IMG/VR virus record: IMGVR_UViG_3300042507_003714
Span: 1-22,766 of that record
Direction: 5' to 3' (one strand)
DNA length: 22,766 bases
Source of the DNA: a virus
Part shown: piece after piece, positions 697-16,201 of the stretch
Layout of the letters: each line of letters starts with the position of its first letter
Numbering within the stretch: position 1 is the first letter of the stretch
Program-made: the position numbers and the translations under genes
Notes under the pieces: model-generated
What the model saw: the letters and a program-made list of their open reading frames with translations, nothing else
What the model was told of the DNA's origin: nothing
Databases searched by the model: none

Positions 697-704
697 GGAA
701 TAAG

Positions 705-1082: not shown

Positions 1083-1984
1083 TGTCTTCTTCGCGAATTT
1101 CCTTTTCACAGTATCAAATGTGGAAAGGATGTCCTCATCGTTGGAAACTAAATTACATTGATAAGGTTTCCGTTCCGTCCCCATCAATCGCTCTCGTGTT
1201 TGGAACTGCAATGCATGAGGTTCTCCAAATGTATGTAGAGATGTTATATCGTTCTACTGTTGAAGAGGCAAACTCACTTCCACTTGAAGACCTTCTAAAA
1301 GAAAAGATGGGTGTGGAGTATAAGAAGATGTTGACTGAAAACAATGATGAACACTTTTCACATCGTGATGAAATGCAAGAACACTTAATGGATGGTATTG
1401 AAATTATCCGATGGTTCAAGGCACATCGTGAAGAGTTCTTTATGAAGAAGGGTTGGGAACTTGTTGGTATTGAAAAGCCAATCAACATCATTCCTGTTGA
1501 ATCAAATCCAAACGTTCGTCTTGTTGGTTTCCTCGACTTGGTGATGCGAGATTTGAAAACTGGTAAGATTCACATTTACGATTTCAAAACATCAACAAGT
1601 GGTTGGAATAAATACACAAAGGCAGATAAGGTAAAGACTTCACAACTTGTTCTTTACAAAACATTCTATGCCAAACAATATGATATTCACCCCGATGATA
1701 TTGAGATTGAGTATCTTATTCTCAAACGTAAGATAGCTGAAGATGCTGAATATGCCGCGATGAAGAAACGTGTTCAACGATTTGCACCTTCTCACGGTAA
1801 GGTTTCACAAACTCAAATCCTGAAAGAGATTCAGACATTTGTTGAAACTGCATTTGATTCAGAAGGTAATAAGAGAACAGATATTTACTATCCACCAATT
1901 GAAGGCGAAAAGAAAAAGAATTGCCGTTGGTGTGAGTTCAAAGATAGAGATGATTTATGTCCAATAAAGAACAGGGTTCAATAA
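1082..1984 (+). CDS. Cas4/RecB-like PD-(D/E)XK nuclease with Fe-S cysteines
   Basis: A 300-residue protein with the RecB/Cas4 nuclease set in order: CPHRW with Cys17, FGTAMHE with His45, GFLDLV with Asp152, YDFKTS with Asp167 and Lys169, and the QxxxY motif Gln188-Tyr192. Three more cysteines near the end (Cys281, Cys284, Cys293; CRWC then C after 8 residues) with Cys17 give the four-Cys iron-sulfur arrangement known from Cas4 and AddB. It should be a metal-dependent DNA exonuclease or nickase acting in recombination or end processing. There is no helicase domain and no neighbouring cas gene or CRISPR array, so a CRISPR role is not supported. It starts inside the previous stop (TAATG) and ends inside the next start in the same way. 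All key residues are present. Confidence 0.9.
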   Translation: MSSSRISFSQYQMWKGCPHRWKLNYIDKVSVPSPSIALVFGTAMHEVLQMYVEMLYRSTVEEANSLPLEDLLKEKMGVEYKKMLTENNDEHFSHRDEMQEHLMDGIEIIRWFKAHREEFFMKKGWELVGIEKPINIIPVESNPNVRLVGFLDLVMRDLKTGKIHIYDFKTSTSGWNKYTKADKVKTSQLVLYKTFYAKQYDIHPDDIEIEYLILKRKIAEDAEYAAMKKRVQRFAPSHGKVSQTQILKEIQTFVETAFDSEGNKRTDIYYPPIEGEKKKNCRWCEFKDRDDLCPIKNRVQ

Positions 1985-3015
1985 TGAAGTACGCATATAC
2001 ATTTGATGATATTCAAATTATTCCAAAGTATAGTGAAGTTGATAGTCGTGGTAAATGTAATCTTGTAACAAACTTTACAAAACAATATAAGATTGGTACA
2101 CCACTTGTTGCTTCACCAATGGATACTGTAACTGAATATAACATGGCAATAACAATCGCATCATATGGTGGGGTTGGTGTAGTTCACCGATTCATGAACA
2201 TTGAAAGACAGGCAAATCAAGTTCGTAAGATTAAAGAACAAGAGAAGTTAGTAGCCGCCGCAATTGGTGCAACTGCTGATTACAAAGAACGTGCACAAGA
2301 ACTTGTAAATGCCGGTGCAATTGTTCTTCTTATTGATGTTGCTCACGGTAACACAAAACAAGTAAAAGACGCAATCTCTTGGTGTAAACAAAATCTGCCA
2401 AGCTATGTAGATGTAATTGCAGGTAATGTTGCTACATATGAAGGCGCAAGAAATTTGGTAGAATGGGGTGCGGATGCTATTCGTGTTGGTATTGGAAATG
2501 GTTCTCTTTGTGAAACAAGAATCAGAACTGGTATCGGTATTCCACAAGTTACAGCTCTCATTGATTGTGTTCGTGCCGTCGAAGAATCAGGAATTGATGC
2601 TCCTATTATTGCAGACGGTGGTGTGAGAATGACGGGTGATGTTGCCAAAGCAATTTCACTTGGTGCAGATTCTGTAATGTTAGGTTCACTTCTCGCAGGT
2701 ACTCGTGAATCTCCTGGTGAAATTCAGAGAATGGGAATGTGGCCGAATGAACAACTCTTCAAGAAGTATCGTGGTTCTGCATCTGCCGAAGTAAAACAAG
2801 TTCATGGATTAGAAGAAAAAAACGTGGAAGGTAATTCAAAGTTGATTCCTTATAAGGGTAAAGTAGAACGTGTCATCAATGACATCAATGATGGTGTTCG
2901 TTCTGCTATGTCTTATGTTAACGCAACAACAATTAGAGAATTCCAAGTTAAGTCTGAACACGTTCTCATTACACAGAACGGTTTGATTGAAGCCAAACCA
3001 CACTTGTTATTGTAA
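1984..3015 (+). CDS. GMP reductase / IMP dehydrogenase family enzyme, no CBS domains
   Basis: A 343-residue TIM-barrel oxidoreductase. The start is ATG 1984, which overlaps the previous stop; an earlier in-frame ATG at 1957 lies inside the nuclease gene. Visible landmarks are GVGVVHRF, DVAHGN, the catalytic loop GIGNGSLCETRIRTG with Cys176, IADGGVRMTGD, MLGSLLAGT, YRGSAS and PYKGKV near the end. The CBS pair found in most IMP dehydrogenases is absent, matching the length of GMP reductase (about 346). The flap region between YRGS and PYKG contains no Arg-Tyr pair, which IMP dehydrogenase needs for hydrolysis of the enzyme-XMP intermediate. This favours GMP reductase (GMP + NADPH to IMP + NH3). 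The loop has CET where families usually have CTT or CIT, keeping Thr at +2. It probably adjusts purine pools during infection. Confidence 0.85.
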   Translation: MKYAYTFDDIQIIPKYSEVDSRGKCNLVTNFTKQYKIGTPLVASPMDTVTEYNMAITIASYGGVGVVHRFMNIERQANQVRKIKEQEKLVAAAIGATADYKERAQELVNAGAIVLLIDVAHGNTKQVKDAISWCKQNLPSYVDVIAGNVATYEGARNLVEWGADAIRVGIGNGSLCETRIRTGIGIPQVTALIDCVRAVEESGIDAPIIADGGVRMTGDVAKAISLGADSVMLGSLLAGTRESPGEIQRMGMWPNEQLFKKYRGSASAEVKQVHGLEEKNVEGNSKLIPYKGKVERVINDINDGVRSAMSYVNATTIREFQVKSEHVLITQNGLIEAKPHLLL

Positions 3016-3032: not shown

Positions 3033-3075
3033 GATATTTATTGAAAACAAAAGTTTCGTAATCAAAGGTTTCGTA
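3022..3075 (+). repeat. Three TTTCGTA repeats in the gap before the glycan cluster
   Basis: TTTCGTA occurs at 3022-3028, 3054-3060 and 3069-3075, the last running into the ATG at 3075. Copies two and three are part of a longer imperfect repeat (AAAGTTTCGTA and AAAGGTTTCGTA). One more copy lies at 18484-18490. They may be operator or promoter elements; function is inference. Confidence 0.4.
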
Positions 3076-4499
3076 TGGCAAAGAAAAAGATTCTCCTCCT
3101 ATCAGACGACTTACGTCTAACGAGCGGTATTGCAACCGTTTCTCGTGATATGGTTATAGGCACAGTTCACAAGTATGATTGGGTTCAAGTCGGTGCCGCT
3201 ATCAACCATCCAGAAAAAGGAAAGTTGTTAGATTTATCGGATAATGCTAAAGAACTAACTGGAGTTCAGGATGCATCTATTAAGATTTTATGCAATGATG
3301 GTTATGGTGATCCGATGTTGATTCGTCGTCTAATCGAAATGGAAAAACCAGATGCAATTCTCCATTTTACCGATCCACGTTTTTGGGATTGGTTGTATAA
3401 TATGGAGCATGAAATTCGCACACAAATTCCACTTCTTTATTTAAATATTTGGGATGGCGCTGGCTTGGTTTGGGATTCCCCAACAGATCCAATGTGGAAT
3501 AAAGATGCGTATGCTAGTTGTGATTTGCTTATGGCTATTTCAAAACAGACGTATGGTATAAACAAAAGAGTTTTGAATCGTGTTGGTGAATCTACACCAA
3601 ATCATAGAATAACTTATGTTCCTCACGGAATAAATACACAAATGTTTAAACCATTAAATTCAAATGACAAGGATTGGGATAACTTGGTATCTGAGTCTCA
3701 AAAGATTCGGAGAGATAATCCAAATAGATTTGTGGTGATGTGGAATAATAGAAATATACATCGAAAACATCCTGGTGACGTTATTCTTGCATATCGTCAT
3801 TTGTGTGAACTCGTAAATAAAAATGGCGGTAATGCAGTAGATGATTGTTTACTATTAATGCATACACAACCTGTTGACCCTAATGGTACAGATATACCTG
3901 CAGTTGTTACAGAATTGTGTAGTAACTTTAATGTTATGTTTAGTGATAAAATTCTTCCAGCCGAAGGTCTAAATATTCTGTATAACATTTCGGACGTAGT
4001 AGTTAATATGTCATCCAATGAAGGTTTTGGATTAGGAACAGCAGAGGCAATGTCATCTGGTACTCCAATTGTTGTAAACGTAACTGGTGGTCTACAAGAC
4101 CAATGTGGTTTCATCAATCCAAAGACGGGTAAATATTTTACAGAAGAAGATTATGTTGAAGTTCATAGCTTAAATAGAAAAGATCAATGGGGAAATTTAC
4201 AACATGGTGAATGGGTTAAACCAGTGTGGCCATCAAATCTTTCACTTCAAGGGTCAGTACCAACACCATATATTTTTGATGACCGTGCAGACTTCAGAGA
4301 CGTTGGTCAGGCACTATATGAATGGTTCAAGACTTCAAAAGAAGAAAGAGTTAAAGCTGGATTGAAAGGAAGAGATTTTATTTTAAGTTCGGATGTTGCT
4401 ATGAATCGCGAACATATGTGTGAACGTGTAATGAAAAGTATTGACGATTGTCTACAAAACTTTACACCAAGAAATCGTTTTGAACTACATTTAGTGTGA
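3075..4499 (+). CDS. GT-B glycosyltransferase, GT4-like
   Basis: A 474-residue glycosyltransferase, first gene of the sugar cluster. The C-terminal half carries the GT4 donor-binding motif E-x7-E at Glu316 and Glu324 (EGFGLGTAE), followed by SSGTPIVVNVTGG. An N-terminal Rossmann-like start (KKILLLSDDLRLTSGIATVS) supports a GT-B fold. No membrane segment is visible, so it should be cytosolic, moving a sugar from a nucleotide donor to an unknown acceptor. It starts after the 59-base gap with promoter-like words; AAAGG at 3064-3068 could be a weak ribosome-binding site. A second GT4-like gene follows after 7 bases, but it is not an obvious copy of this one. Donor and acceptor cannot be read from the sequence. 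Confidence 0.88.
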   Translation: MAKKKILLLSDDLRLTSGIATVSRDMVIGTVHKYDWVQVGAAINHPEKGKLLDLSDNAKELTGVQDASIKILCNDGYGDPMLIRRLIEMEKPDAILHFTDPRFWDWLYNMEHEIRTQIPLLYLNIWDGAGLVWDSPTDPMWNKDAYASCDLLMAISKQTYGINKRVLNRVGESTPNHRITYVPHGINTQMFKPLNSNDKDWDNLVSESQKIRRDNPNRFVVMWNNRNIHRKHPGDVILAYRHLCELVNKNGGNAVDDCLLLMHTQPVDPNGTDIPAVVTELCSNFNVMFSDKILPAEGLNILYNISDVVVNMSSNEGFGLGTAEAMSSGTPIVVNVTGGLQDQCGFINPKTGKYFTEEDYVEVHSLNRKDQWGNLQHGEWVKPVWPSNLSLQGSVPTPYIFDDRADFRDVGQALYEWFKTSKEERVKAGLKGRDFILSSDVAMNREHMCERVMKSIDDCLQNFTPRNRFELHLV

Positions 4500-4506
4500 G
4501 GATAAT

Positions 4507-5814
4507 ATGAGTTATAGACCAGAATTAGTTTTTTGTGGACCAGTTGCAACACGTTCAGGATATGGAGAACACGCCAGAGACCTATTGACATCTATTATGA
4601 ACATGGACAAGTTTAATATAAAGGTCATATCAATAAATTGGGGACAGACTCCAATGAATGCGCTTGACGCAAATAATCCCGAACACAAACGTATATTAGA
4701 TAGTATAATTCCAGGTCTTACGTCCCAACCGGAAGTTTGGATTCAATGTACTATTCCAAACGAATTTCAACCAGTTGGAAAGTATAATATCGGAATAACA
4801 GCAGGGATAGAGACCGACCTTTGTTCACCTGAATGGATTGATGGTTGTAATAAAATGAATCTTGTTATTGTTCCATCTAAACACGCTAAAGATGTTCTAT
4901 CAAGTACAAAATATGAAAAGAGAGATAAGACATCAGGCCAGACTGTTGGAAATTTAGAATTGACTACTCCTATAGAAATTTTACACGAAGGTGTAAGACT
5001 TGACATCTTCAATAAAAATCTACCTGCCGAAAAAACAATTACTGAAACTTTTGAAAAGATAAAAGAAGATTTTTGTTATCTATTTGTTGGCCATTGGTTA
5101 AAGGGAGACTTCGGGGAGGATAGAAAAGATTTGTCAGGATTGATTTATACTTTCTTGGAAACATTTGGCGATACTGAAAATCCCCCTGCACTTTTATTGA
5201 AAGCATCGAGTGGTGGATTTTCAATAAGTGACAGGAGTAGAACTTTTGAAAAAATTGATTTGATTAAACAAATGGTAAAGAAGAAAAATCTTCCAAACAT
5301 CTATCTCCTTCATGGTGATTTAACAGACCAAGAAATGAATACTCTTTACAATCATGAAAAAGTAAAAGCACTTGTTTCGTTCACAAAAGGTGAAGGTTAT
5401 GGTAGACCAATTGCTGAATTTATTACAACAGGAAAACCTGTAATTGTTTCTGGGTGGAGTGGCCACGTAGATTTTGTAAATCCTGTCTTTCACACATATC
5501 TTGAAGGTGAATTGAGAGAAATTCATGATAGCTCAGCTTGGGAAGGTGTATTAAATAAAGGTTCAAAATGGTTCACTGTGAATTATAAAAAAGCATCAGA
5601 TACTCTACATAAAGTTCACAAAAAATATAAAACATACCTCAATGAATCTAAAAAATCAGTACCCGAATTAGAGAAGAAGTGGTCTTATGAAGCTATGAGT
5701 GAAAAATTTGAACAACTACTTGATACACATCTTCCAAAATTCGCACAGAGAATAAGTCTCAACTTGCCTCAATTAAAGAAACTTCCAACCTTAAAGAAAG
5801 TTGAAACTGAATGA
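4507..5814 (+). CDS. GT-B glycosyltransferase, GT4-like (second)
   Basis: A 435-residue protein with the GT4 E-x7-E motif at Glu296 and Glu304 (EGYGRPIAE) followed by GKPVIVSGWSGHVDFV. The N-terminus (ELVFCGPVATRSGYGEHARD) has the glycine-rich acceptor-side loop often seen in GT4 enzymes, and residues near 190-200 (FVGHWLKGDFGEDRKD) match the linker before the donor domain. GAGGA at 4498-4502 gives a ribosome-binding site overlapping the previous stop. The last about 60 residues are lysine-rich and helical. It is likely a soluble sugar transferase; specificity unknown. It ends in an ATGA overlap with the next gene, indicating translational coupling. Confidence 0.88.
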   Translation: MSYRPELVFCGPVATRSGYGEHARDLLTSIMNMDKFNIKVISINWGQTPMNALDANNPEHKRILDSIIPGLTSQPEVWIQCTIPNEFQPVGKYNIGITAGIETDLCSPEWIDGCNKMNLVIVPSKHAKDVLSSTKYEKRDKTSGQTVGNLELTTPIEILHEGVRLDIFNKNLPAEKTITETFEKIKEDFCYLFVGHWLKGDFGEDRKDLSGLIYTFLETFGDTENPPALLLKASSGGFSISDRSRTFEKIDLIKQMVKKKNLPNIYLLHGDLTDQEMNTLYNHEKVKALVSFTKGEGYGRPIAEFITTGKPVIVSGWSGHVDFVNPVFHTYLEGELREIHDSSAWEGVLNKGSKWFTVNYKKASDTLHKVHKKYKTYLNESKKSVPELEKKWSYEAMSEKFEQLLDTHLPKFAQRISLNLPQLKKLPTLKKVETE

Positions 5815-6440
5815 TTTCTTATACAATAACGGCTTGCAACGAAGATAGAGAGTTGGATAAACTACTGAATGTTATTCGTGTGAATTTAAAAGACACGGAT
5901 GAGGTAGTTATCCAACTCGACCAAGACAAAGTAACTGATGAAGTTAGAAAAGTGTGTTCTATATATAAAGAAAGAATACCAATATTAAAAGTTACCGAAT
6001 TTTCTCTGAACAATGACTTTGCATCATTCAAGAATAATTTGAAAAGTCATTGTACGAAAGAATGGATATTCAATATTGATGCCGATGAGATACCTTCTGG
6101 ATTTCTGCTCGAAAATATCCACACTATTCTTGAATCAAATTCAGATTTAGATCTTTTAATTGTTCCGAGATGGAATGTTGTTGACGGCATAACGGAACGT
6201 CACATAAATTCTTGGCGTTGGAGACATGATGAATGGGGTAGAATAAATTGGCCAGATTGGCAAATGAGAATTTATAGAAACAAGGAATCCATATCTTGGA
6301 AGAATAAAGTACATGAAAAGATTGATGGATATGAAAAATACTCATTTCTTCCAGAGGATAAGGATTATTGTCTTTTCCATAACAAGACAATACAAAAACA
6401 AGAACAACAAAATAACTTTTATGAAAATATGGAGTTATAA
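5811..6440 (+). CDS. GT2-like glycosyltransferase (short, WaaE/KdtX-like)
   Basis: A 209-residue GT-A type protein. The start (ISYTITACNEDRELDKLL) matches the ACNE signature of GT2 enzymes related to WaaE/KdtX, and the metal-binding DXD-like motif is FNIDADEIP with Asp90 and Asp92. Downstream, WRWRHDEWGRINWPDWQMR and KVHEKIDGY resemble the NWPDxQxRI ... VHE segment common in this group. At 209 residues it is somewhat shorter than typical members. It starts in an ATGA overlap with the previous gene and its stop shares one base with the next start. Soluble; sugar and acceptor unknown. Confidence 0.82.
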   Translation: MISYTITACNEDRELDKLLNVIRVNLKDTDEVVIQLDQDKVTDEVRKVCSIYKERIPILKVTEFSLNNDFASFKNNLKSHCTKEWIFNIDADEIPSGFLLENIHTILESNSDLDLLIVPRWNVVDGITERHINSWRWRHDEWGRINWPDWQMRIYRNKESISWKNKVHEKIDGYEKYSFLPEDKDYCLFHNKTIQKQEQQNNFYENMEL

Positions 6441-7294
6441 TGAAAGATTTAATAGTCACAACTATAAGTAAAAACTATGTTTGGACAGACATAAATAATT
6501 GGATTTCTTCTTTAAAGAAAACTGGATATGACGGTGATATTCTTGTATTAGCATATAATTTTGAGGAAGAACACAAACACATTCTTAAATTAAAAGAATA
6601 TGGTGTAGAAGTATTAATTCCAAATAATACATTTAGAGGAAGTGAAGAATCTAATTTCGTTTGGCACTCTGGTGAAGTAAACCCATCAAACGCAAATAAA
6701 CTGATTCATAATGTTAGATTGTTTCACTTGTGGCAATATTTCACAGAAACCGAGATAGATTCAAAATATAATAGAATTATCTTCACAGATGGGAGAGATG
6801 TTTATTTTCAAACAAACCCGTCTGAATGGCTAGATAAAAATATGGTTTCTGAAATTCTTGTACCATCGGAAGGTGTTTTATATTCGGATGAGCCTTGGAA
6901 TACAAATAATGCATTAGTAAATTATGGACCTTATGTTTATGAATATCTATTGAAACAAAAGACAGTTTGTAATGTTGGGACATTTGCTTGTAAGAGTTCT
7001 ATATGCAAAGAGTTATGTCTTGTTCTTTATTTAATGTCTAACAACACAGGTCATGCAGACCAACCGTCTTTTAATATTTTGGTTCATACTTTACTCAATG
7101 ATAAATGTCAGTTTGTTAATTATGATAATTCATGGGCACTTCAAATTGGTGCGATAGTTAATGAATTGGAAAAACACACGTATATGGATTCAGACATAAT
7201 CTACTCAAAAGAATCAAAAGAACCATATTGTATAGTTCATCAATATGATAGAGTTCCACTACTAAAAAATAATGCAGATTTAAAATTTAAGTAA
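6440..7294 (+). CDS. Putative GT-A glycosyltransferase with TDGRD motif
   Basis: A 284-residue protein without an easily named family. The centre reads YNRIIFTDGRDVYFQTNP with Asp117 and Asp120, resembling the 'DxRDV.FQ.dP' motif of uncharacterised nucleotide-sugar transferases. The N-terminus (VTTISKNYVWTDINNWISSL) reads as a beta strand and helix of a GT-A fold, and NTGHADQPSFNIL near residue 205 could be the acceptor-side D-Q motif. All five arginine codons are AGA. It lies between a GT2-like and a GT7-like gene, one base from the latter, so a sugar-transfer role is likely by context and motif but not proven. Confidence 0.6.
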   Translation: MKDLIVTTISKNYVWTDINNWISSLKKTGYDGDILVLAYNFEEEHKHILKLKEYGVEVLIPNNTFRGSEESNFVWHSGEVNPSNANKLIHNVRLFHLWQYFTETEIDSKYNRIIFTDGRDVYFQTNPSEWLDKNMVSEILVPSEGVLYSDEPWNTNNALVNYGPYVYEYLLKQKTVCNVGTFACKSSICKELCLVLYLMSNNTGHADQPSFNILVHTLLNDKCQFVNYDNSWALQIGAIVNELEKHTYMDSDIIYSKESKEPYCIVHQYDRVPLLKNNADLKFK

Positions 7295-7295
7295 A

Positions 7296-8027
7296 ATGAA
7301 ATACTCAATAATAATACCATACAGAAATAGAGAAGAACATTTACAAATTCTTCTACCAAGATTACAGGAATTATTTAAAGAAGAATCATACGAAATCATT
7401 GTATCTGAACAAGACAATGACGATAACTTTCAAATCGCCTGTGTTGAGAACGTAGGTTACAATAATTCCAAAGGTGACATTATAATACTACACCAAGTGG
7501 ATTATTATCCACTCGATGATGTTTCATATGAAGTAGAAGATAATCCAGTATTGCCTGCAAGGCGTGGTGTATTTGTTGATAAAGATAATAAGACCGAACG
7601 AAGTTATTATGATATACCGGCTGGTTATCGTAAATGGTCAACTGAAATAGATGCCAACTTTTATGGTGGAGTTATTTGTATGAAACGAGAACACTACGAG
7701 CAGATCAATGGACTAAATCCATTGTACAAAGGTTGGGGGAATGAAGACGAGGATTTAAGAGAAAGATTTGTGTGGGCGGGAATACCAGTTAAAAGAAATG
7801 AACATGGAACTTTTTTATGTCTGTATCATGAAGACAATGGTGACATGAGTAAGAAGGATGAATCAGGACGTAAGGACTTTTTTGAGGGAAGAGATTACTT
7901 CTATGAAAAGGCATTCCATGATAGACATATTGGACACAAAAACTTATCGGCCGATGTTGAAGAGATGGAAACTGATATTGAAAATGTTCGTTGGATTAAA
8001 AGTAAAAACTACAAGGTTACTGAATGA
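7296..8027 (+). CDS. GT7-like (beta-1,4-galactosyltransferase family) glycosyltransferase
   Basis: A 243-residue GT-A enzyme with the landmarks of family GT7: IPYRNREEHL at residues 7-16, NVGYN at 52-56, HQVDYYPL at 66-73 (the DVD-like metal site), YGGVICMKREHYEQINGL at 123-140 and the catalytic-loop motif GWGNEDEDL at 146-154. In animal beta-1,4-galactosyltransferases the equivalent loop, GWGGEDDD, binds acceptor and provides the catalytic acid. Here it is cytosolic with no signal or membrane anchor. It likely transfers Gal, GalNAc or a similar sugar to a non-reducing GlcNAc- or Glc-like end; the exact sugar is inference. The next gene starts in an ATGA overlap. Confidence 0.85.
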   Translation: MKYSIIIPYRNREEHLQILLPRLQELFKEESYEIIVSEQDNDDNFQIACVENVGYNNSKGDIIILHQVDYYPLDDVSYEVEDNPVLPARRGVFVDKDNKTERSYYDIPAGYRKWSTEIDANFYGGVICMKREHYEQINGLNPLYKGWGNEDEDLRERFVWAGIPVKRNEHGTFLCLYHEDNGDMSKKDESGRKDFFEGRDYFYEKAFHDRHIGHKNLSADVEEMETDIENVRWIKSKNYKVTE

Positions 8028-8989
8028 GAAAATTAAATGTATATAGCTTTCACAGAAACATTGATTCTTTTAGATTTGATGCACATAACACCCACAACTT
8101 GATAGAGCAACTTAGTAAAAGATATGATGTGGTTTGGCACAACAAAGATGGGTCAGACCATTTTCATTATATCAATGACTGTGATGTATTAATAAATCAA
8201 GGATCAATTCTTATATTTGAATTTGATGATACAAAAGAATTTATGACATTTGATTTCGGAGATTCTCCATCATTGACTGTATCACTTTCAAAGTCAAGTA
8301 AGTTTATTGGTGCATCAATAGGACAATACAACAAAAAACTTTGGGATGATGTAATATCAAATCCAATTGTAAGAGAAAAGATAAAACCATCTGTATATCC
8401 AGAAACTTGTTGGAACTTTGGTATAGAAAATTTCTCACAGATTCAAGAGTATAGAAATTCAATTGATTTAGACACCCGTCTTTATTGGAGAGGTAGTACA
8501 TATAAGAATCATCCAAATCCACAATACAACGGAGTTAGAGACTCAATAGAACATATTTACAAAATGATGCCTGAGTTTTATTTTGGTTATCATCCAATAC
8601 CATTTGACAATTATATACAAGAGTCAATTGGATTTAAATTAGTTCTTGGATTTGGTGGGGGTGGTGGATATTTGTGTGGAGATTTTTGTTTTAGAGATAT
8701 TGAAATGTTTGGATTAGGAATACCAGTTATTCGACCTAAATTTGTTGCAGAAACAACAGACCCACTCATACCAAATGTTCACTACATTGCAGTTGACTGT
8801 GAATTTGATGATATGTTTAGATATAAAAATCCAGAACAATTGGCAAAAGATATAGTTAACAGATACAACGAGGTTATAAATGACGATGAACTTTTATCAA
8901 GTGTTGTAAATAACGCAAGAAATTGGTATATTAAAAATATCAGTTCTGAAAATATTACAAACAAAATTATGGAATCACTTGGCTTATGA
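8024..8989 (+). CDS. GT90/CAP10-like putative glycosyltransferase
   Basis: A 321-residue protein. The segment TRLYWRGSTY (151-160) and the later run FCFRDIEMFGLGIPVIRP (221-238) followed by an LA-x2-I-x2-R helix resemble the donor-binding half of GT90 (CAP10/LpsA-like) and some exostosin-like enzymes, where an Arg-Gly-S/N loop and an E..x.G..PVI motif are typical. A glycine run (211-215) lies just before. It begins in an ATGA overlap with the GT7-like gene and ends in one with the DUF6165 gene, so expression is tightly coupled. The family call rests on motif style, not close similarity. It could also be another GT-B subfamily. Confidence 0.55.
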   Translation: MRKLNVYSFHRNIDSFRFDAHNTHNLIEQLSKRYDVVWHNKDGSDHFHYINDCDVLINQGSILIFEFDDTKEFMTFDFGDSPSLTVSLSKSSKFIGASIGQYNKKLWDDVISNPIVREKIKPSVYPETCWNFGIENFSQIQEYRNSIDLDTRLYWRGSTYKNHPNPQYNGVRDSIEHIYKMMPEFYFGYHPIPFDNYIQESIGFKLVLGFGGGGGYLCGDFCFRDIEMFGLGIPVIRPKFVAETTDPLIPNVHYIAVDCEFDDMFRYKNPEQLAKDIVNRYNEVINDDELLSSVVNNARNWYIKNISSENITNKIMESLGL

Positions 8990-9363
8990 AAATAGAAGTA
9001 TCAAACGGTGAGATATTAGATAAGCTGTCTATACTCCAAATAAAAGCAACAAAGTTTAATGATATTTACAAACTCTCAAATGTAGAAAATGAGAGAAGAG
9101 CTCTTTTACCGATGTATGATTTAATAGCAACAACATCGGAGATACGTCAGAAGTTTCACGATCTTATTAATATCAACTCAAAGCTTTGGGACATCGAAGA
9201 CATGATTCGTATAAAAGAACAGAGAAATCAGTTTGATGAAGAATTTATTGAGTTAGCAAGATCCGTCTACAAGACTAATGATATACGTGCTGAGATCAAA
9301 CGAGATATAAACCTTTTATCAAATTCAGAGTTGATTGAAGAAAAATCATATGCAGAATACTAA
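8986..9363 (+). CDS. DUF6165 family protein
   Basis: A 125-residue helical protein that matches the DUF6165 pattern closely: SNGEILDKLSILQIKA at the start, LSNVENERRAL, then SKLWDIEDMIRIKEQR, then EFIELARSVYKTNDIR and a C-terminal EEKSY. The family's biochemical role is unknown to me; in bacteria it is found beside glycosyltransferases and lipopolysaccharide or capsule genes. It has no visible catalytic pattern and could be a scaffold or regulator for neighbouring transferases (inference). It overlaps the gene before by 4 bases and the GT9-like gene after by 14. Confidence 0.85.
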   Translation: MKIEVSNGEILDKLSILQIKATKFNDIYKLSNVENERRALLPMYDLIATTSEIRQKFHDLININSKLWDIEDMIRIKEQRNQFDEEFIELARSVYKTNDIRAEIKRDINLLSNSELIEEKSYAEY

Positions 9364-10258
9364 GTGTCTCATCGTAACTTATGGTTTCTTTGGTGACATT
9401 GCGTTTGCAAGTTCGATAGCCAAAAAGTTAAAAGAAGAAAACCAATTTGATAAAGTGGATTACCTAATAGGTTTTCCACAAATGCAAAGATTATTGGAGA
9501 ATAATCCGTACATAGATTTTGTTTACTCATCGGTGATACCATCACCAGTTCCAGTAAACAATTCAATAGAGTATAACTCTTATGATAAAGTAGTAAGACT
9601 ACAACAACTGTCTTTTACAGAGCCACCACCTTATGAGTTTCAAAAATTTGCTGGGGTTAGAAATCCAGATACATCATACAAGATTTATACTGAACCTAGC
9701 TATGACGAGATCGCCGAAGAATCAATACGAGAATTTTATTCTAACGGAAAAAAGACTTTGGCATTTCTTAGTAATTGGGAATCCAAATCATATGTTTTCA
9801 CTGAAGAAGAATACATTCAAGGAATAGATGTTCCTAATTTTGGATATGGTGGAAAACACAGGGATATAAACAAAATATTGAATGAACTAAAGAATTATTT
9901 TAACTTAATCGAAGTTGGAATGCCGTCTGATATTTCTCAATCCCAAACATCTATGATGGAAGATACGAATCAGAAATCAATTTTATTTGAGTGTTCTGTT
10001 ATGAAATACTGTGATGGATTTATTGGAACAGAAGGTGGTATGTGTAATCTTGCAGCTGGCGTTGGAGCAAGGACAATTATAACTGGTGACTTTGTTCATC
10101 AGTTATATGGATGGAATGGTGTTATAAAAAAAATAAATGAACCAAAATTAGGTCCAATCTATTATTTTGGAAATGAAAATCATACCGTTCTTAATCCATA
10201 CATGACAGATACGGAAGTATCAAACTCCATAATACAATTATTATTTAAAGGAAAATAA
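9350..10258 (+). CDS. GT9-like (heptosyltransferase fold) glycosyltransferase
   Basis: A 302-residue protein from ATG 9350, with GAAG at 9337-9340 as a possible ribosome-binding site; an in-frame TTG at 9335 would add five residues and is less likely. The N-terminus has GFFGDIAFASSIAKKLKE, equivalent to the GD.l..tP....L loop of GT9 enzymes, followed by VDYLIGFPQMQRLLENNPYI. The C-terminal half has FIGTEGGMCNLAAGVGA (about 224-240), equivalent to the D/T-GG..HLA.A.G donor motif. GT9 enzymes transfer heptose or related sugars in lipopolysaccharide core synthesis. Here the His of the HLA motif is replaced by Asn (CNLA). Substrate unknown. Confidence 0.72.
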   Translation: MQNTKCLIVTYGFFGDIAFASSIAKKLKEENQFDKVDYLIGFPQMQRLLENNPYIDFVYSSVIPSPVPVNNSIEYNSYDKVVRLQQLSFTEPPPYEFQKFAGVRNPDTSYKIYTEPSYDEIAEESIREFYSNGKKTLAFLSNWESKSYVFTEEEYIQGIDVPNFGYGGKHRDINKILNELKNYFNLIEVGMPSDISQSQTSMMEDTNQKSILFECSVMKYCDGFIGTEGGMCNLAAGVGARTIITGDFVHQLYGWNGVIKKINEPKLGPIYYFGNENHTVLNPYMTDTEVSNSIIQLLFKGK

Positions 10259-10261
10259 AAT

Positions 10262-11005
10262 ATGAAACAGTTATCTATTTGTATGACACATATAAACAGA
10301 AAACGTCAACTACTGAATACTTTACAAAGTATACAAGACCAAGACGTTAAAGATTTAATCGAGGTTATAATTGTGGATGATGTCAGTGAAACCCCACTTT
10401 CCTACTCCGATGTTCAAAAATTTGATTTGGATATAAAGTTAGTAACAATATCTACAAAAAATAAATGGTGGGTAAACCCAGTAGTTGCATTTAATACCGC
10501 ATTTCATTTTATACACGGTGAACGTGTAATAATTCAAAATGCAGAATGTCTTCATGGTACAAATATTGTCAAGTATGTAATTGATAATTTGAAAAAAAAT
10601 GAGTATATTGCAATGTTAGCTCTTGCACTATCTAAAACTTCATCTGAAAAAATAACGGAAAAAACTCAGCCAGATGATATAGATACGAATGGGGCGATAT
10701 GGTATTGTCATCCGGAACACAGACCTGATCCTTTAAATTTCTGCGCAGCAATGTTTACAGAAGATTTAGTTAAAATTGGAGGATTTGATAACAGGTATGC
10801 TGAAGGAATGTGGTCAGACGATACTGCATTTTTATCAACGCTAAAAAAACATGGAATAGAAACTAGAATTGAAGATAGTCAATTAGTTTTTCATCAATGG
10901 CACGAGGATTTATGGCATTCAAATCCAAATATGCCATCACTTGTTGCAAAAAATAGAGTTTTAGTAGACGCACTAAATAAGGAGATAAACGATGGCATAT
11001 ACTGA
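10262..11005 (+). CDS. GT2 glycosyltransferase with QNAE in place of DXD
   Basis: A 247-residue GT-A enzyme: SICMTHINRKRQLLNTLQSI at the start, VDDVS at 38-42 for nucleotide binding, and FCAAMFTEDLVKIGGFD then WSDDTAFL as the acceptor region with its catalytic aspartates. The usual metal-binding DXD is replaced by IQNAECLH (91-98), a variant I have seen in some GT2 branches, where a single acidic residue remains. A metal-weak or metal-independent mechanism is possible but inferred. The gene starts 3 bases after the previous stop and overlaps the methyltransferase-like gene by 14 bases. Confidence 0.85.
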   Translation: MKQLSICMTHINRKRQLLNTLQSIQDQDVKDLIEVIIVDDVSETPLSYSDVQKFDLDIKLVTISTKNKWWVNPVVAFNTAFHFIHGERVIIQNAECLHGTNIVKYVIDNLKKNEYIAMLALALSKTSSEKITEKTQPDDIDTNGAIWYCHPEHRPDPLNFCAAMFTEDLVKIGGFDNRYAEGMWSDDTAFLSTLKKHGIETRIEDSQLVFHQWHEDLWHSNPNMPSLVAKNRVLVDALNKEINDGIY

Positions 11006-11522
11006 TTGGATTGATATTGTAGAAAAAACAATACAAAATAAAGATAGAATAAATTTTCTAGAGTTTGGTCTTGGGGAAGGAACTGAATACTTAGTAGATA
11101 AGTTTAAATTCGTTTACTCTCATGAATTGATTGATGAAAGAGATTCAACTCTCATAGAATGGTATAATCAATCATCTGAAAAATTGAAAGATAAGAAGAA
11201 TTGGAAAAGTGAGGTAGTATTTTGGAAGGACATTAATTTTATAGATTACGACCCAAATCTACCAAAGAAACTATTGGATAGAATTGATGAATTATTTTCA
11301 GAATATAAATTTGATGGTGTTTTAGTTGATGGTGGTTATCATGTAAGAGGAGATATTGCAAATTATGTTTTGAATAAATTTAAACCAAAGTACGTTGTAA
11401 TACATGATACAAATTATAATTACGAAGTAGATGGTTATCTCAGAATAATTCTTCCGGATATATATGAAACTGTTGAATACAGAGTTGGAGAAGGAACTCA
11501 CATATTTGTAAAGAAAGGCTAA
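10992..11522 (+). CDS. Class I SAM-dependent methyltransferase-like protein
   Basis: A 176-residue protein with an excellent ribosome-binding site, AAGGAG at 10979-10984, 7 bases before ATG 10992. Residues 22-34 (FLEFGLGEGTEYL) resemble methyltransferase motif I with the acidic-G.G.GT loop for S-adenosylmethionine. FDGVLVDGGYHVRGD (107-121) and YVVIHDTNYN (134-143) resemble the D-G.H...D and HD segments of Methyltransf_24-type O-methyltransferases. It could cap or decorate a sugar hydroxyl of the glycan made by its neighbours (inference). It is smaller than a typical enzyme of about 200-220 residues, so loss of activity is possible. Confidence 0.65.
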   Translation: MAYTDWIDIVEKTIQNKDRINFLEFGLGEGTEYLVDKFKFVYSHELIDERDSTLIEWYNQSSEKLKDKKNWKSEVVFWKDINFIDYDPNLPKKLLDRIDELFSEYKFDGVLVDGGYHVRGDIANYVLNKFKPKYVVIHDTNYNYEVDGYLRIILPDIYETVEYRVGEGTHIFVKKG

Positions 11523-11526
11523 CAAA

Positions 11527-12468
11527 ATGAGAATTTTAATTACAGGTGTTTTGGGAACAGTAGGTTCTATTTTAAAAGAAAAACTAATTCACAAAGGTCA
11601 CTCGGTTTTTGGTATAGATTTATATCACTCTCTCGGAGAAACTGGATTTTCACAAACTGTTAGTTCCGAACAACAGACGTATAATAGATGTGATATTGGA
11701 GAATATCATCAAATAGAAAGAGTTATTGAAAAATTCGGTCCATTTGATTTAGTCTATAATTGTGCCGCAGAATTTGGTAGATGGAACGGTGAAGATTATT
11801 ATGAACAACTTTGGAAATCAAATGCAATAGGTTTAAAAAATATCATTCGATTACAGGAAAAACACAAATTCAAATTGGTTCATTTTTCTAGTTCTGAGGT
11901 ATATGGTGATTATGACGGTATTATGACAGAATCTATTATGGACGAAATAGAAATAAAACAGATGAATGATTATGCAATTTCAAAATGGGCAAACGAAATG
12001 CAAATACGAAATTCCAGAATCATGTATGGTACAGAAACTGTTATTGTCAGATTATTTAATACATACGGTCCAGGAGAAAACTATCACCCATACCGTTCAG
12101 TCAACTGTAAGTTCTGTTACCATGCACTTAATAATCTTCCTATAACGGTTTTTACAGGACATTACAGGTCAAGCACTTATATAGATGATGCAGTTAGTGC
12201 AATATCAAATATCTCTGATAATTTTATAGACGGAAGAATTTATAACATCGGTAGCAATGAATTTCATTCAATAGAAAAATTGGCAGAATTGATATGGGAT
12301 TATGTGGGTGCTGATAAATCTTTAGTACAGTATAAGGAGTCTGAGGTTTTAACAACAAAAACAAAAACACCAGACATTTCACTTTCAGTAAATGAACTTG
12401 GTTACAAATCAACTGTAATATTAGAAGACGGTGTTAAAAAAACAATTGATTGGATGAGAACAGTCTAA
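11527..12468 (+). CDS. NAD-dependent sugar epimerase/dehydratase (extended SDR) 1
   Basis: A 313-residue extended SDR enzyme. GVLGTVG at 7-13 is the GxxGxxG dinucleotide loop, SSSEVYG at 121-127 holds the active-site Ser, and Tyr149-x3-Lys153 (YAISK) is the catalytic pair. NTYGPGE and the YIDDAV segment near residue 220 are typical of sugar-nucleotide epimerases and dehydratases. It should act on an NDP-sugar using bound NAD to supply a donor for the surrounding transferases. The exact reaction (4-epimerase, 4,6-dehydratase or decarboxylase) cannot be assigned by eye. Only one base separates it from the next gene. Confidence 0.9.
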   Translation: MRILITGVLGTVGSILKEKLIHKGHSVFGIDLYHSLGETGFSQTVSSEQQTYNRCDIGEYHQIERVIEKFGPFDLVYNCAAEFGRWNGEDYYEQLWKSNAIGLKNIIRLQEKHKFKLVHFSSSEVYGDYDGIMTESIMDEIEIKQMNDYAISKWANEMQIRNSRIMYGTETVIVRLFNTYGPGENYHPYRSVNCKFCYHALNNLPITVFTGHYRSSTYIDDAVSAISNISDNFIDGRIYNIGSNEFHSIEKLAELIWDYVGADKSLVQYKESEVLTTKTKTPDISLSVNELGYKSTVILEDGVKKTIDWMRTV

Positions 12469-12469
12469 T

Positions 12470-13171
12470 ATGAAAATCATTTATAGAATATCAGATGTTG
12501 GTTACAAAAAAGTAAAACCAAAATATATCAATAATGAATCTTGTCTGAATAATGCAATATCAGTCTTTAATCCAAATGACCACGATTGGTTTATTATTGC
12601 AGATAATACATCCGATGAAACAAACAAAATGATTTCAAAGTATGTCCAGTCGGAATCAATTTACTACACATCAATCAAAAGTGGTGCCGGTACATTTAAC
12701 TATGCTCTTGATATGGCATTGAAGTTTGATAAAAATGATGTTGTCTATTTCTTAGAAAATGACTATATTCATAAAACAAATTCAGATGTTATCTTACTTG
12801 AAGGAATAAATGCTGGTGGAGATTATATCAGTCTATACGATCATCCAGACAAATACATACCATCGAGTCGTGGTGGTAATCAGTTCATAGATGATGATGG
12901 CGGCGAGATAACAAAAGTTTATCTAACCAAATCATCTCACTGGAAGATTACTAACAGTACAACGATGACCTTTGCTTCAAAGGTAAATACTCTTATGGAA
13001 GATGAAGATATACTTAGAAAATGGACTAACATGGGGAGTTACCCAAGAGATTTTGATATGTTCATTGAACTAAGAAATAAAGGAAAGGTTTTATTAACGT
13101 CGATACCTGGATATTCTACACACGGAGAATCTGCTTGGTTATCGCCATTAACTAATTGGGAACTCATATGA
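12470..13171 (+). CDS. GT2-like putative glycosyltransferase with ENDY motif
   Basis: A 233-residue protein in the sugar cluster. WFIIADNTSDET near residue 40 corresponds to the GT2 'DDGS.D' nucleotide site, and VVYFLENDYIH (91-101) takes the place of DXD. Residues after this (YISLYDHPDKY, RGGNQFIDDDGG) are distinctive, and the C-terminus STHGESAWLSPLTNWE looks like an acceptor loop. It resembles uncharacterised GT-A proteins in phage genomes, but I cannot name the family. It begins one base after the epimerase and ends in an ATGA overlap with a clearer GT2 gene, so a role in the same glycan is likely. Confidence 0.6.
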   Translation: MKIIYRISDVGYKKVKPKYINNESCLNNAISVFNPNDHDWFIIADNTSDETNKMISKYVQSESIYYTSIKSGAGTFNYALDMALKFDKNDVVYFLENDYIHKTNSDVILLEGINAGGDYISLYDHPDKYIPSSRGGNQFIDDDGGEITKVYLTKSSHWKITNSTTMTFASKVNTLMEDEDILRKWTNMGSYPRDFDMFIELRNKGKVLLTSIPGYSTHGESAWLSPLTNWELI

Positions 13172-13956
13172 TTTCAGTTGTAATACCATCATACAGAAAT
13201 CCAAAATGCTTGGATGTTTGTTTGAACTCTGCTCTCGAAAATCAATCAAATGATAATGAGATTATAGTTGTCCTCGACGGGTTTGCTGATGAGTCAAATC
13301 ACATTGTTGAAAAGTATCGTGATAGAGTTTCATTCATACCGATTGAAGTAAATTCAGGTATGCAATACGCTTTAAATGTGGGAGTCTATCAATCTTCAAA
13401 CGAATGGATATTGATTGTAAATGACGATAATGTATTTCCAAAAGATTGGGATATTCTTCTCGAACAAGATTCATCTGAACGTCTAATCATAACTCCAAAT
13501 CAAATTGAAAGGACACCAAGTATATTCAATTTTGTTACTAAAGATTTTGGTGGCATAGATAATTTTGATTTTCAATCGTATACAAATGAAGAACCAAATT
13601 ACAGAGAAAATTCTCTTACAAATGATGGAGAGATATTTCCATTCTTCATGCAGAAAAAATACTATATGGCTTGTGGTGGGTTCGATACAATTTATGATTC
13701 TCCGTTTATTTGTGATTGGGATTTCTTTTTAAAGCTAGAACTCATTGGTTTGAAGTTTGTAAGAAGTAGAAAGTTAAACTTCTATCACTTTGGAAGTATG
13801 GCAACAAAGAATGGAAATGAACGGGATAGATTTGTTCAAAGTGAAAGAGATGCATTTGACTCATTTAAATTTAAGTGGGGATTTAACCCAATACGAAATA
13901 TAGACAATAGTCATTCACCTAAAAATTATTATGTAATGGGAATTAAGTATGAATAA
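13168..13956 (+). CDS. GT2 glycosyltransferase
   Basis: A 262-residue GT2 enzyme from ATG 13168 (ATGA overlap with the previous stop); an upstream in-frame TTG at 13156 would add four residues and is less likely. The N-terminus ISVVIPSYRNPKCLDVCL is a textbook GT2 start. IIVVLDGFADES provides the nucleotide Asp, NDDN at 85-88 is the metal site, and GGFDTIYDSPFICDWDFFLK near residues 170-190 is the acceptor region with the catalytic Asp. No membrane segment is present, unlike polysaccharide synthases. It overlaps the following epimerase by 8 bases. Sugar specificity unknown. Confidence 0.9.
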   Translation: MISVVIPSYRNPKCLDVCLNSALENQSNDNEIIVVLDGFADESNHIVEKYRDRVSFIPIEVNSGMQYALNVGVYQSSNEWILIVNDDNVFPKDWDILLEQDSSERLIITPNQIERTPSIFNFVTKDFGGIDNFDFQSYTNEEPNYRENSLTNDGEIFPFFMQKKYYMACGGFDTIYDSPFICDWDFFLKLELIGLKFVRSRKLNFYHFGSMATKNGNERDRFVQSERDAFDSFKFKWGFNPIRNIDNSHSPKNYYVMGIKYE

Positions 13957-14947
13957 AAAAGTATTGATTACAGGAGTCGCAGGTCTTCTTGGCGCGAGAC
14001 TCGCTGATTGGATTATAGAGAATAAACCAGAATATGAAGTTGTTGGTGTTGATAATCTTGATGGTGGTTATTTAGATAATGTTCATCCGAGATGTGATTT
14101 TTATAAATCAGATTGTACAGATACAATTGAGATGGATAAGATATTTTCTACACATAAGTTTGAGTATGTATTTCATTTTGCTGCATATGCTGCAGAGGGA
14201 TTATCTCCATTCATCCGTTGTTTTAATTATACAAACAATCTACTCGCCACCGCAAACATTGTTAATAACTGTATAAGACATGACATCAAACGTCTTGTAT
14301 TTACATCCACTATGGCAGTGTATGGTCATGGCAATCCTCCGTTCGATGAGTCACATCAACCTGCACCTATTGACCCATATGGTGTTGCAAAGTTTGCCTG
14401 TGAGCAAGATATTCAAATCGCAGGAGAACAACATGGTTTGGACTGGTGTATTATTAGACCGCATAATGTGTATGGTATCAAACAAAATATTTGGGACAAG
14501 TATCGTAACGTTCTTGGTATTTGGATGTACCAACACCTAAATGGAAAGCCAATGACAATATATGGCGATGGTACACAAACACGAGCATTTAGTTATATTG
14601 ATGATTGCCTTGAACCACTGTGGAAAGCAGCAGTAGATGAAAAGACTTCAAAGGAAATTATAAATCTTGGTGGTACTAAGTATCATAGTATTAAAGAAGC
14701 AAATGAAATATTGATAGAAGTTATTGGTGATGGTGAGTTCATTCACATGGAACCACGTCATGAAGTTAAAGATGCCCACCCAACATGGAAAAAATCAGTT
14801 GAACTTCTCAATTATAACGATACAACATCTCTTAATGATGGTCTAACTGAAATGTGGGAATGGGCAAAACAACAACCAATGAGAGAACAGTTCATTTGGG
14901 AAAACTATGAACTAGACAAAGGTATTTATTCATTCTGGAGAAAATAA
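13949..14947 (+). CDS. NAD-dependent sugar epimerase (extended SDR) 2
   Basis: A 332-residue extended SDR enzyme, UDP-glucose 4-epimerase-like. GVAGLLG at 9-15 is the dinucleotide loop, GVDNLDGG the NAD-ribose Asp region, TSTMAVYG at 119-126 the active-site Ser/Thr strand, and Tyr144-x3-Lys148 (YGVAK) the catalytic pair. RPHNVYG and YGDGTQTRAFSYIDDCL are typical of NDP-sugar epimerases. Length and motif order are complete. It overlaps the GT2 gene by 8 bases and is followed 3 bases later by a UDP-sugar dehydrogenase. The two together could feed galactose- and uronic-acid-type donors to the cluster (inference). Confidence 0.92.
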   Translation: MNKKVLITGVAGLLGARLADWIIENKPEYEVVGVDNLDGGYLDNVHPRCDFYKSDCTDTIEMDKIFSTHKFEYVFHFAAYAAEGLSPFIRCFNYTNNLLATANIVNNCIRHDIKRLVFTSTMAVYGHGNPPFDESHQPAPIDPYGVAKFACEQDIQIAGEQHGLDWCIIRPHNVYGIKQNIWDKYRNVLGIWMYQHLNGKPMTIYGDGTQTRAFSYIDDCLEPLWKAAVDEKTSKEIINLGGTKYHSIKEANEILIEVIGDGEFIHMEPRHEVKDAHPTWKKSVELLNYNDTTSLNDGLTEMWEWAKQQPMREQFIWENYELDKGIYSFWRK

Positions 14948-14950
14948 GTT

Positions 14951-15787
14951 ATGGTAAATGTTATAGGAATTGTTGGTCAAGGTTTTGTTGGTAGTGCAGT
15001 TAAACAAGGAATGGAGAATCATTTTAAGATAGAGACGTTCGATATTCTTCCTGAAAAATCCACAACAAATAGTTTAGAAGAACTTTATAATAAAACCGAT
15101 TTGATATTTGTGTGTTTACCAACTCCGATGAAGAAGTCGGGGGAATGCGATACAAAGATAGTAGATTCTGTTTTTTCTCAACTCAATCAGATGGGTAATG
15201 GAAAAATTGTTGTATTGAAATCAACAGTACCACCAGGAACTTGTAAGTTATTTCAAGAAAAATATCCGAATATAAATCTTATTTTTAATCCAGAGTTTTT
15301 AACAGAAGCAAACGCTATAATGGACTTCATTAACCAAGATAGAATAGTTTTGGGTGGTAATAATGGATTAACAGAGACGGCCGATATGTTCAGAAGGGCA
15401 TTTCCATTTATTCCAATAGTACAGACAAGTTCAGATGTTGCGGAGATGGTTAAGTACGTTGCTAACTGTTTCCTATCCGTTAAGGTTGTATTCGCAAATC
15501 AATTGTTTGATGTTTGTTCTTCTGCTGGTATCAATTATGATGAGGTCGTCGGTATATCAAAATTAGATAAACGGCTTGGATTAAGTCATTGGAAAGTACC
15601 AGGACCAGATGGAGATAGAGGTTATGGTGGTCATTGTTTTCCGAAAGATATGTCTGCGTTCTTAAAGTTTGGTGAAAATAATGGAGTAAATCTTTCTTTG
15701 ATAAAAGAATCGATTGACTACAACAATATAGTCCGTAAAAACAGAGATTGGGAAACTATGATAGGAAGAGCTGTATCAGATGAATAA
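14951..15787 (+). CDS. UDP-glucose/GDP-mannose 6-dehydrogenase family, short form
   Basis: A 278-residue member of the UDP-sugar 6-dehydrogenase family. GQGFVG at 9-14 binds NAD, FVCLPTP (53-59) and STVPPGT (91-97) line the NAD site, NPEFLTEANA (113-122) begins the central domain, EMVKYVANCF (165-174) holds the conserved Lys168, and GYGGHCFPKD (224-233) holds catalytic Cys229. Full enzymes (about 390-450 residues) continue with a C-terminal UDP-binding domain of roughly 100 residues; here the protein stops soon after the central helices. All catalytic residues are present. It would oxidise a UDP-hexose to a uronic acid, or be altered in specificity. It closes the sugar cluster before a 57-base gap. 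Confidence 0.88.
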   Translation: MVNVIGIVGQGFVGSAVKQGMENHFKIETFDILPEKSTTNSLEELYNKTDLIFVCLPTPMKKSGECDTKIVDSVFSQLNQMGNGKIVVLKSTVPPGTCKLFQEKYPNINLIFNPEFLTEANAIMDFINQDRIVLGGNNGLTETADMFRRAFPFIPIVQTSSDVAEMVKYVANCFLSVKVVFANQLFDVCSSAGINYDEVVGISKLDKRLGLSHWKVPGPDGDRGYGGHCFPKDMSAFLKFGENNGVNLSLIKESIDYNNIVRKNRDWETMIGRAVSDE

Positions 15788-15801
15788 TCTGAATTAATGT
15801 C

Positions 15802-15812
15802 ATATTTATATT
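15802..15812 (+). promoter_or_regulatory. AT-rich promoter-like word before the DUF5856 gene
   Basis: ATATTTAT (15802-15809) runs into TATATT (15807-15812) about 33 bases before the start at 15845, in one of only four real gaps in the window. ATATTTAT also occurs in the gaps at 3034-3041 and 20041-20048. No convincing -35 box lies at the right distance. It may be a -10 region or a phage-specific promoter. Tentative. Confidence 0.3.
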
Positions 15813-15844
15813 TACAGTCAAGTCAATTATTATTGGAGATTAAA

Positions 15845-16201
15845 ATGCACGAAGTAGCAAGTAAACTTATAGAAGTTCACAATCAATTGAAGTTCTTTCA
15901 TTGGCAAACAACATCATATGCAAGACATCAAGCTTACGGTGGTGCTTATGATGCACTTACACCACTCATTGATAACTTTGTAGAAGTAATGATGGGTAAG
16001 TATGGCCGTGTTCCTGCACTCCCAATGAAGGTTTACAATCGTAATGAAAAGGATTGTATGACATTTATTGACGAAACAATTGCATACCTCCTACTTCTCT
16101 CAAACGGATTAAATCCCCAAACAGATACAGACCTCCTTAATATTCGTGACGAGATGGTATCTGAATTCAACAAATTGAAATATCTACTTACATTGAAGTA
16201 A
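15845..16201 (+). CDS. DUF5856 protein, ferritin/Dps-like helical fold
   Basis: A 118-residue helical protein. I start it at ATG 15845 with GGAGA at 15835-15839; an in-frame ATG at 15797 lies in the promoter-like gap and is not used. The sequence has QLKFFHWQTTSYARHQAYGG near residues 13-32, VEVMMGKYGRVP, and a C-terminal TDLLNIRDEMVSEFNKLKYL, the layout of the DUF5856 family of T4-like phages. The H-W-x-T and E/H positions resemble Dps or ferritin-like helical proteins, but I cannot show a full metal site. Its role is unknown; stress protection of phage DNA or a virion function are guesses. It begins a block of small phage genes and probably a new transcript. Confidence 0.8.
   Translation: MHEVASKLIEVHNQLKFFHWQTTSYARHQAYGGAYDALTPLIDNFVEVMMGKYGRVPALPMKVYNRNEKDCMTFIDETIAYLLLLSNGLNPQTDTDLLNIRDEMVSEFNKLKYLLTLK

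Follow-up and report, generated by a model that had tools for sequence, protein, structure and literature searches.

A 22,766-base linear fragment of a virus genome (IMG/VR record IMGVR_UViG_3300042507_003714; "the window" below means this whole stretch) carries at positions 3075-15787 a glycan gene cluster of 15 open reading frames (ORFs), all on the plus strand, in a slot that is constant among related T4-like phages. Three glycosyltransferase (GT) genes, GT4a, GT4b and a GT2 gene, form a core present in every cassette compared, the rest of the cluster is exchanged between phages with near-identical backbones, and the locus has in common with virion genes an upstream motif, ATATTTAT. As far as the searches reached, the fixed slot with its three-enzyme core, the exchange of cassettes and the motif shared with virion genes are new. 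The locus may be a virion 'glycotype' locus of T4-like Bacteroidota phages, resembling those for capsule or O-antigen but using no lipid carrier, wherein a fixed core and swappable cassettes (some of nonulosonic-acid type) behind a late promoter would allow the sugars of the particle to switch by recombination. This overall picture is put forward tentatively, at somewhat less than even confidence.

Fixed slot, conserved core and exchanged cassettes

In Mel-JY01 and in IMG/VR relatives, as in the window, the cluster occupies the interval between a GMP reductase gene and a DUF5856 gene. Two relatives of the window phage are cultured and complete, the 190-kb Microcystis phage Mel-JY01 and the 160-kb Flavobacterium phage immuto, which is grown on Flavobacterium LMO8. 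The slot was compared among 14 contigs or records that include both of its sides, counting the window and one record (G009) that ends inside DUF5856. GT4a, GT4b and GT2 are present in each of the 14 bounded cassettes; clustered at 40% identity, the cassette genes make up 92 families, 54 of them singletons. In a wider neighbourhood survey of the best 80 GT4a loci, a PD-(D/E)XK nuclease gene accompanied GT4a in 80/80, GT4b was adjacent in all 66 testable loci, and GT2 was found in 48 of 56.

Exchange is seen in G007, whose upstream genes are 98-99% identical to those of the window and whose DUF5856 is 92% identical, with a middle part that is wholly different; none of g4 to g15 is present there save for a remote epimerase similarity. 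The closest relatives have upstream genes that are mostly 86-100% identical, with GT4a identity going down to about 74%. In G029 the backbone has diverged (56-81%, the clamp-loader subunit being at 56%), yet g5 to g12 follow one another as in the window; its g11 is 84% identical, and g14 and g15 are missing. The contents of the slot also include nonulosonic-acid-type genes: G009 and G013 (L148, L151/L152) have two NeuB, PseB/PseC-like and formyltransferase genes, and G007 (L146/L147) has another NeuB together with thiamine-pyrophosphate-enzyme and dehydroquinate-synthase-like genes. Variation of the cluster as a cassette among related phages, raised in an earlier note on this DNA, is thus borne out by the 14 cassettes, their 92 families and the G007 swap.

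Absence of lipid-linked export genes

A hydropathy scan of the 15 cluster proteins gave no credible transmembrane segment; the sole peak, at residue 5 of g14, is the first strand of a Rossmann fold. Pfam matches were judged by the curated cut-off of each family, with PHROG as a second profile source, and no Pfam match to a flippase, polymerase, ligase or polyprenyl-phosphate transferase occurs in the window, as the earlier note had stated. Because the record covers no more than 22.8 kb of a genome that is incomplete, export genes were sought in its relatives as a proxy. Profiles for polyprenyl-phosphate transferases (PF02397, PF00953), the Wzx flippase (PF01943) and Wzy/WaaL (PF04932) produced nothing above cut-off in 19 records, comprising the complete Mel-JY01 and immuto and 17 shorter contigs; G014 has one PF00953 fragment, which is sub-threshold. 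Twelve further contigs of 53-209 kb were likewise without a match to PF01943 or PF02397. The traits of a Wzx/Wzy O-antigen or capsule pathway are consequently missing from the sets searched (flippase 0/31, Wzy/WaaL 0/19). Control genomes gave matches in every one of these searches, and PF01943 was positive in 13/14 of them. As for ABC-transporter O-antigen export (Wzm membrane subunit, Wzt ATPase), there is no transmembrane protein or ABC domain among the 15, a search that did not extend to the remainder of the relatives. The gene content of the complete relatives, with that of the other contigs, supports the soluble machinery that the earlier note had predicted.

A motif shared with virion genes

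When the region before GT4a is aligned among relatives, ATATTTAT emerges as a common motif. The first copy in the window (3034..3041) lies about 41 bp upstream of the GT4a start codon, the second (15802..15809) lies 43 bp before ATG 15845 of DUF5856, and the third (20041) precedes a cohesin gene; all are on the plus strand, and their number is not above chance (3.35 expected), so that only their placement before gene groups sets them apart. Coding sequence makes up about 90% of the 14 records compared for the motif, yet 135 of their 245 copies lie outside it; the distance from motif to next start codon peaks at 40-44 bp. In Mel-JY01 and the long contigs the motif stands upstream of portal-region, sheath, tail-tube and neighbouring genes, and sites are numerous in Mel-JY01, G019, G023, G029 and G031. 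Within 25-110 bp upstream it is found for 17 of 50 structural genes, 4 of 93 replication or nucleotide genes and 2% of random positions (Fisher 4e-6, calculated over related, not independent, records and with structural and replication labels taken from the Mel-JY01 annotation).

At the glycan locus itself ATATTTAT is found before GT4a in 7 of 13 records, and the later genes of the operon almost never have it. The Mel-JY01 GT4a has a variant, ATATTTGTA, at 45 bp, and in G019, G022 and G025 the motif is upstream of an extra 461-aa gene that precedes GT4a. In reverse complement ATATTTAT resembles the T4 late box, TATAAATA; the sense orientation of that T4 late promoter was looked for before Mel-JY01 genes and not found, the reverse-oriented ATATTTAT being enriched instead. 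A sigma-70 and terminator scan showed no excess over shuffles, and an Rfam search returned nothing. Judged by its position, ATATTTAT probably belongs to the late promoters of this phage group, and so read it suggests late expression of the glycan operon. Late expression would in turn make a virion acceptor more likely than either DNA or an early change of the host surface.

GT4a as a viral enzyme

Relatives of GT4a occur in at least 583 IMG/VR stretches, whereas a pattern-based scan of 84,980 bacterial and archaeal genomes, which can miss distant homologues, gave no more than four matches, all weak and partial; it is on this distribution that GT4a is taken to be a viral enzyme. Its best PDB match is chlorovirus B736L (8e-15), the next best standing at 4e-7. 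In chloroviruses (PMC7826918, PMC4691112), virus enzymes glycosylate the capsid protein in the cytoplasm, and the glycan has a conserved core and variable outer sugars. Soluble virus-encoded GTs and a conserved core with a variable outer part, here in terms of gene content only, are common to PBCV-1 and the window phage. The parallel lies in the way the enzymes work and does not prove membership: no function has been established for B736L, chloroviruses infect eukaryotes, their acceptor is proven and that of the window phage is proposed, and what was read of the two papers describes no single operon with swapped cassettes.

In the deposited Mel-JY01 sequence GT4a is split into two ORFs (L125 20001-21492), through either a natural break or a sequencing error. 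RM378 has a GT4a homologue (29%), and a GT4a-GT4b pair is not claimed there because the next gene is a marginal match to GT4b (E 0.004).

The fifteen genes

The ORFs are spaced by -29 to +7 nt, and coding length takes up about 100% of the interval, in keeping with the close packing first described for the cluster. Six glycosyltransferases are firm. They are GT4a (3075..4499; PF00534, 33.8 bits), GT4b (4507..5814; phrog_2170, 8e-16, and below the Pfam cut-off), g3, the GT2 enzyme of the core (5811..6440; PF00535, 32.8 bits; like GT4a in 14/14 cassettes), g5, which is GT7-type and galactosyltransferase-like (7296..8027; PF02709, 55 bits; PF13733, 48.7 bits), and the GT2 enzymes g9 (10262..11005; PF00535, 38.5 bits; G029 relative at 74%) and g13 (13156..13956; PF00535, 69 bits; 10/14 cassettes). 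Two more are weak. GT2-like g12 (12470..13171; 9/14 cassettes) reaches 20.7 bits with PF00535, for which the cut-off is 23.3. The 'TDGRD' protein g4 (6440..7294) matched no Pfam profile and drew an empty PDB profile search; its AlphaFold2 model, of low confidence (predicted local distance difference test, pLDDT, 58), has a Foldseek match to glycogenin, of the GT8-type GT-A fold (E 1e-4), and D117 and D120 of a D-x-x-D-V motif are invariant across nine aligned relatives. These weak hints suggest that g4 is possibly a GT-A glycosyltransferase.

Two further candidates are unassigned, having found nothing in Pfam or PDB searches. The first, g6 (8024..8989), is kept in the cassettes of G003, G022, G025 and G029, and its AlphaFold2 model was set aside as too poor for interpretation (pLDDT 48). 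The second, g8 (9335..10258), has a G(T/S)EGGxxNxAAGxG motif conserved in 9/9. The count of at least nine glycosyltransferases given earlier therefore holds for six firm and two weak members, the calls of g6 as GT90-like and of g8 as GT9-like, the latter by motif only, being unconfirmed.

The accessory enzymes predicted earlier were recovered with one exception. DUF6165 (g7, 8986..9363) scores 41.5 bits with PF19662. The two NAD-dependent epimerases are g11, of the epimerase/dehydratase type (11527..12468; PF01370, 128.6 bits; PDB 8w3u, 2e-89), and UDP-glucose 4-epimerase-like g14 (13949..14947; PF01370, 152.5 bits; PDB 4zrm, 3e-44). The UDP-sugar dehydrogenase g15 (14951..15787; PF03721 and PF00984) is short at its C terminus: no profile match to the UDP-binding domain is found there, and alignments to UDP-glucose dehydrogenases in the PDB span residues 35-264 only. 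The same short form is present in G001, G003, G011, G022 and G025. The exception is g10 (10992..11522; G029 relative at 63%), a possible methyltransferase that is left unassigned, neither profile nor PDB supporting the call. Purifying selection acts on those genes of the window that were tested, the nonsynonymous rate (dN) being well below the synonymous rate (dS) in every pair.

Flanking genes and phage identity

To the left of the cluster, again on the plus strand, lie genes for a T4-type gp62-like clamp-loader subunit (175-696), a DUF1599-like protein (693-1082; a sub-threshold match to a family associated with nucleotide modification) and a PD-(D/E)XK nuclease (1082-1984). Profile matches over 175..1984 are phrog_225 (7e-9) and phrog_69 (1.5e-28), and the gene order of this flank is identical in Mel-JY01 and IMG/VR relatives. 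The left anchor of the slot is the GMP reductase/IMPDH-like gene (1957..3015, plus strand; PF00478, 1e-107), with 75-100% identity in most relatives that have it. DUF5856, the right anchor (15797..16201, plus strand; PF19174, 68.9 bits; likely real start at ATG 15845), is present in 16 of 30 relatives searched; it is followed by NUDIX, peptide deformylase and cohesin genes. Mel-JY01 has the same gene order surrounding its own, shorter glycosyltransferase block, and its structural genes (capsid, sheath, tube) are annotated as T4-like; in immuto the GT4a-GT4b-GT2 genes come after the PD-(D/E)XK gene. From its gene order, the window is part of the genome of a T4-like myovirus and is syntenic with Mel-JY01. 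Misassembly of a bacterial fragment, the concern attached to the first description, is ruled out because independent contigs and an isolated phage have the same core and flanks.

The cohesin-domain protein (637 aa, 20108-22021) ends in a type IX secretion (Por_Secre_tail) sorting tail, and relatives occur in G013 (86%), contig 3300042350_002613 and immuto (30%). Given this tail, the type IX secretion system (T9SS) of the host may export the protein; together with the Flavobacterium relatives, the tail also suggests a host among the Bacteroidota.

The GMP reductase gene is interrupted by an inserted ORF in L041 (4452-6906) and L039 (4780-7214); the L041 ORF has a NUMOD3 motif, and the interruption is on that ground probably a homing-endonuclease or intron insertion. 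In one branch, seen in G019 (L155 7561-8943) and at the corresponding place in G021, G022 and G025, the 461-aa protein, which has no Pfam match, replaces GMP reductase before GT4a. Downstream of the glycan locus G003 encodes a 1411-aa protein with IgGFc-binding and HYDIN-type Ig domains (L145 5190-9422).

Acceptor of the glycan

The locus would be an operon for glycan assembly, expressed late, in a T4-like phage of Bacteroidota. Soluble GT4a, GT4b and GT2 would assemble the inner part of the glycan, its core, on an acceptor that lies in the cytoplasm of the host. The remaining GTs and the sugar-nucleotide enzymes, exchanged as a cassette between related phages, would lengthen and vary the outer sugars. 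The most likely acceptor would be a protein of the virion, from capsid, tail or fibre, and each phage would thereby have its own 'glycotype'. A cytosolic acceptor such as a virion protein had already been favoured in the earlier note; the late-promoter-like motif is new support for a virion acceptor. We consider this the best of several readings, with about an even chance of being correct.

Several points weigh against a virion acceptor. The analysis turned up no data on virions, glycans or expression in any of these phages, the cluster is linked to no structural gene, and the missing lipid-linked steps could come from the host. No initiating protein glycosyltransferase can be named, the search for a MAF/MptE protein nonulosonate transferase having given only sub-threshold fragments (G009, G013). 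ATATTTAT is not directly before GT4a in G019, G022, G023, G025 and G029, many structural genes are without it (operons), and its late identity is deduced from position in contigs that are related, not independent. A 1226-aa multi-domain GT of Mel-JY01 (L166 4750-8427), with GT4 and GT9 domains and a weak TibC N-terminal domain, lies beside a structural gene and is annotated as an FkbM methyltransferase; it was considered as a protein-initiating enzyme and not used as evidence, because it did not turn up in immuto and because many other IMG/VR contigs have its C-terminal domain.

Modification of the host surface is the first alternative, one we hold to be unlikely. The phage enzymes would borrow the host lipid carrier, flippase and ligase, and the altered O-antigen or capsule would block competing phages. 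Clusters of the P-SSM2 type (PMC7824862) and of pelagimyophages (PMC7029224) have been read in this way, an epimerase with a UDP-sugar dehydrogenase is typical of lipopolysaccharide (LPS) loci, the NeuB, PseB/PseC-like and formyltransferase genes of some relatives also serve LPS, and cassette variation would suit selection by rival phages. Set against these are the lack of polyprenyl-phosphate transferase, flippase, polymerase and ligase in the relatives searched and of transmembrane segments in the cluster, as well as a conserved GT4a that is essentially absent from the bacterial genomes scanned; moreover, a late-type motif poorly suits a virulent phage that alters the host surface just before lysis.

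DNA hypermodification, wherein the GTs would decorate modified genome bases against restriction as in T4, is improbable for the group as a whole. The locus does adjoin the clamp-loader, DUF1599-like and PD-(D/E)XK genes, and T4-like phages glucosylate hydroxymethylcytosine (PMC6024577). However, the thymidylate-synthase/dCMP-hydroxymethylase family (PF00303) is absent from the complete Mel-JY01, whose thymidylate synthase is ThyX, from RM378 and from contigs of 161, 168, 202 and 209 kb, and was found only in immuto and a 180-kb contig, G032, with a partial match in G029. Fifteen genes, a UDP-sugar dehydrogenase among them, exceed the needs of base modification, and ATATTTAT marks virion genes, not replication genes. 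A Tet/JBP search was uninformative, its control being silent. The DNA route may apply in the immuto branch, since immuto has PF00303 and annotated 7-deazaguanine modification genes.

That the acceptor is instead an exported phage protein on the host surface, such as the cohesin protein with its T9SS tail, whose gene has ATATTTAT upstream in 3/3 records, is very improbable, the immuto homologue lying about 36 kb from the GT locus.

Relation to known systems and implications

Large glycan clusters in T4-like phages are already known, because those of P-SSM2 and the pelagimyophages have been published, and the phenomenon is not new; the suggestion that such a set in a phage is unusual is not supported, given these precedents and the GT4a distribution. 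In P-SSM2, 15 clustered genes encode epimerases and GTs, and host-LPS modification was proposed as their role (PMC7824862). Clusters of this type, in cyanophages and jumbo phages, resemble that of the window in their T4-like setting, their size of about 15 genes, the several GT families with NAD-dependent epimerases, and polymorphism between related phages. Unlike them, the window cluster is without a PfkB kinase or nucleotidyltransferase, and its GT4-GT4-GT2 core, fixed slot and late-type motif suggest an acceptor other than the host surface. Pelagimyophages, also T4-like, have GTs, many in a hypervariable region, and a UDP-glucose dehydrogenase (PMC7029224), but these are mixed with tail-fibre genes and GT8-dominated, whereas the window cluster follows replication genes between fixed anchors and is dominated by GT4 and GT2. 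The DNA glucosyltransferases of T4 share the T4-like background and replication-gene neighbourhood; the window has far more genes, and most relatives lack the hydroxymethyl-pyrimidine synthase family. Mycobacteriophages, which are unrelated, are reported to carry glycans on capsid and tail tube subunits (work cited in PMC12619734), and the available part of that paper describes no multi-gene cassette.

Since immuto and Mel-JY01 are in culture, the question of the acceptor is directly testable. If the glycan is on the virion, the locus would give phages something like serotypes, much as bacteria switch capsules, and would be a bacterial-virus counterpart of chlorovirus capsid glycosylation; many phage 'LPS clusters' now annotated as host modification would then need to be re-read.

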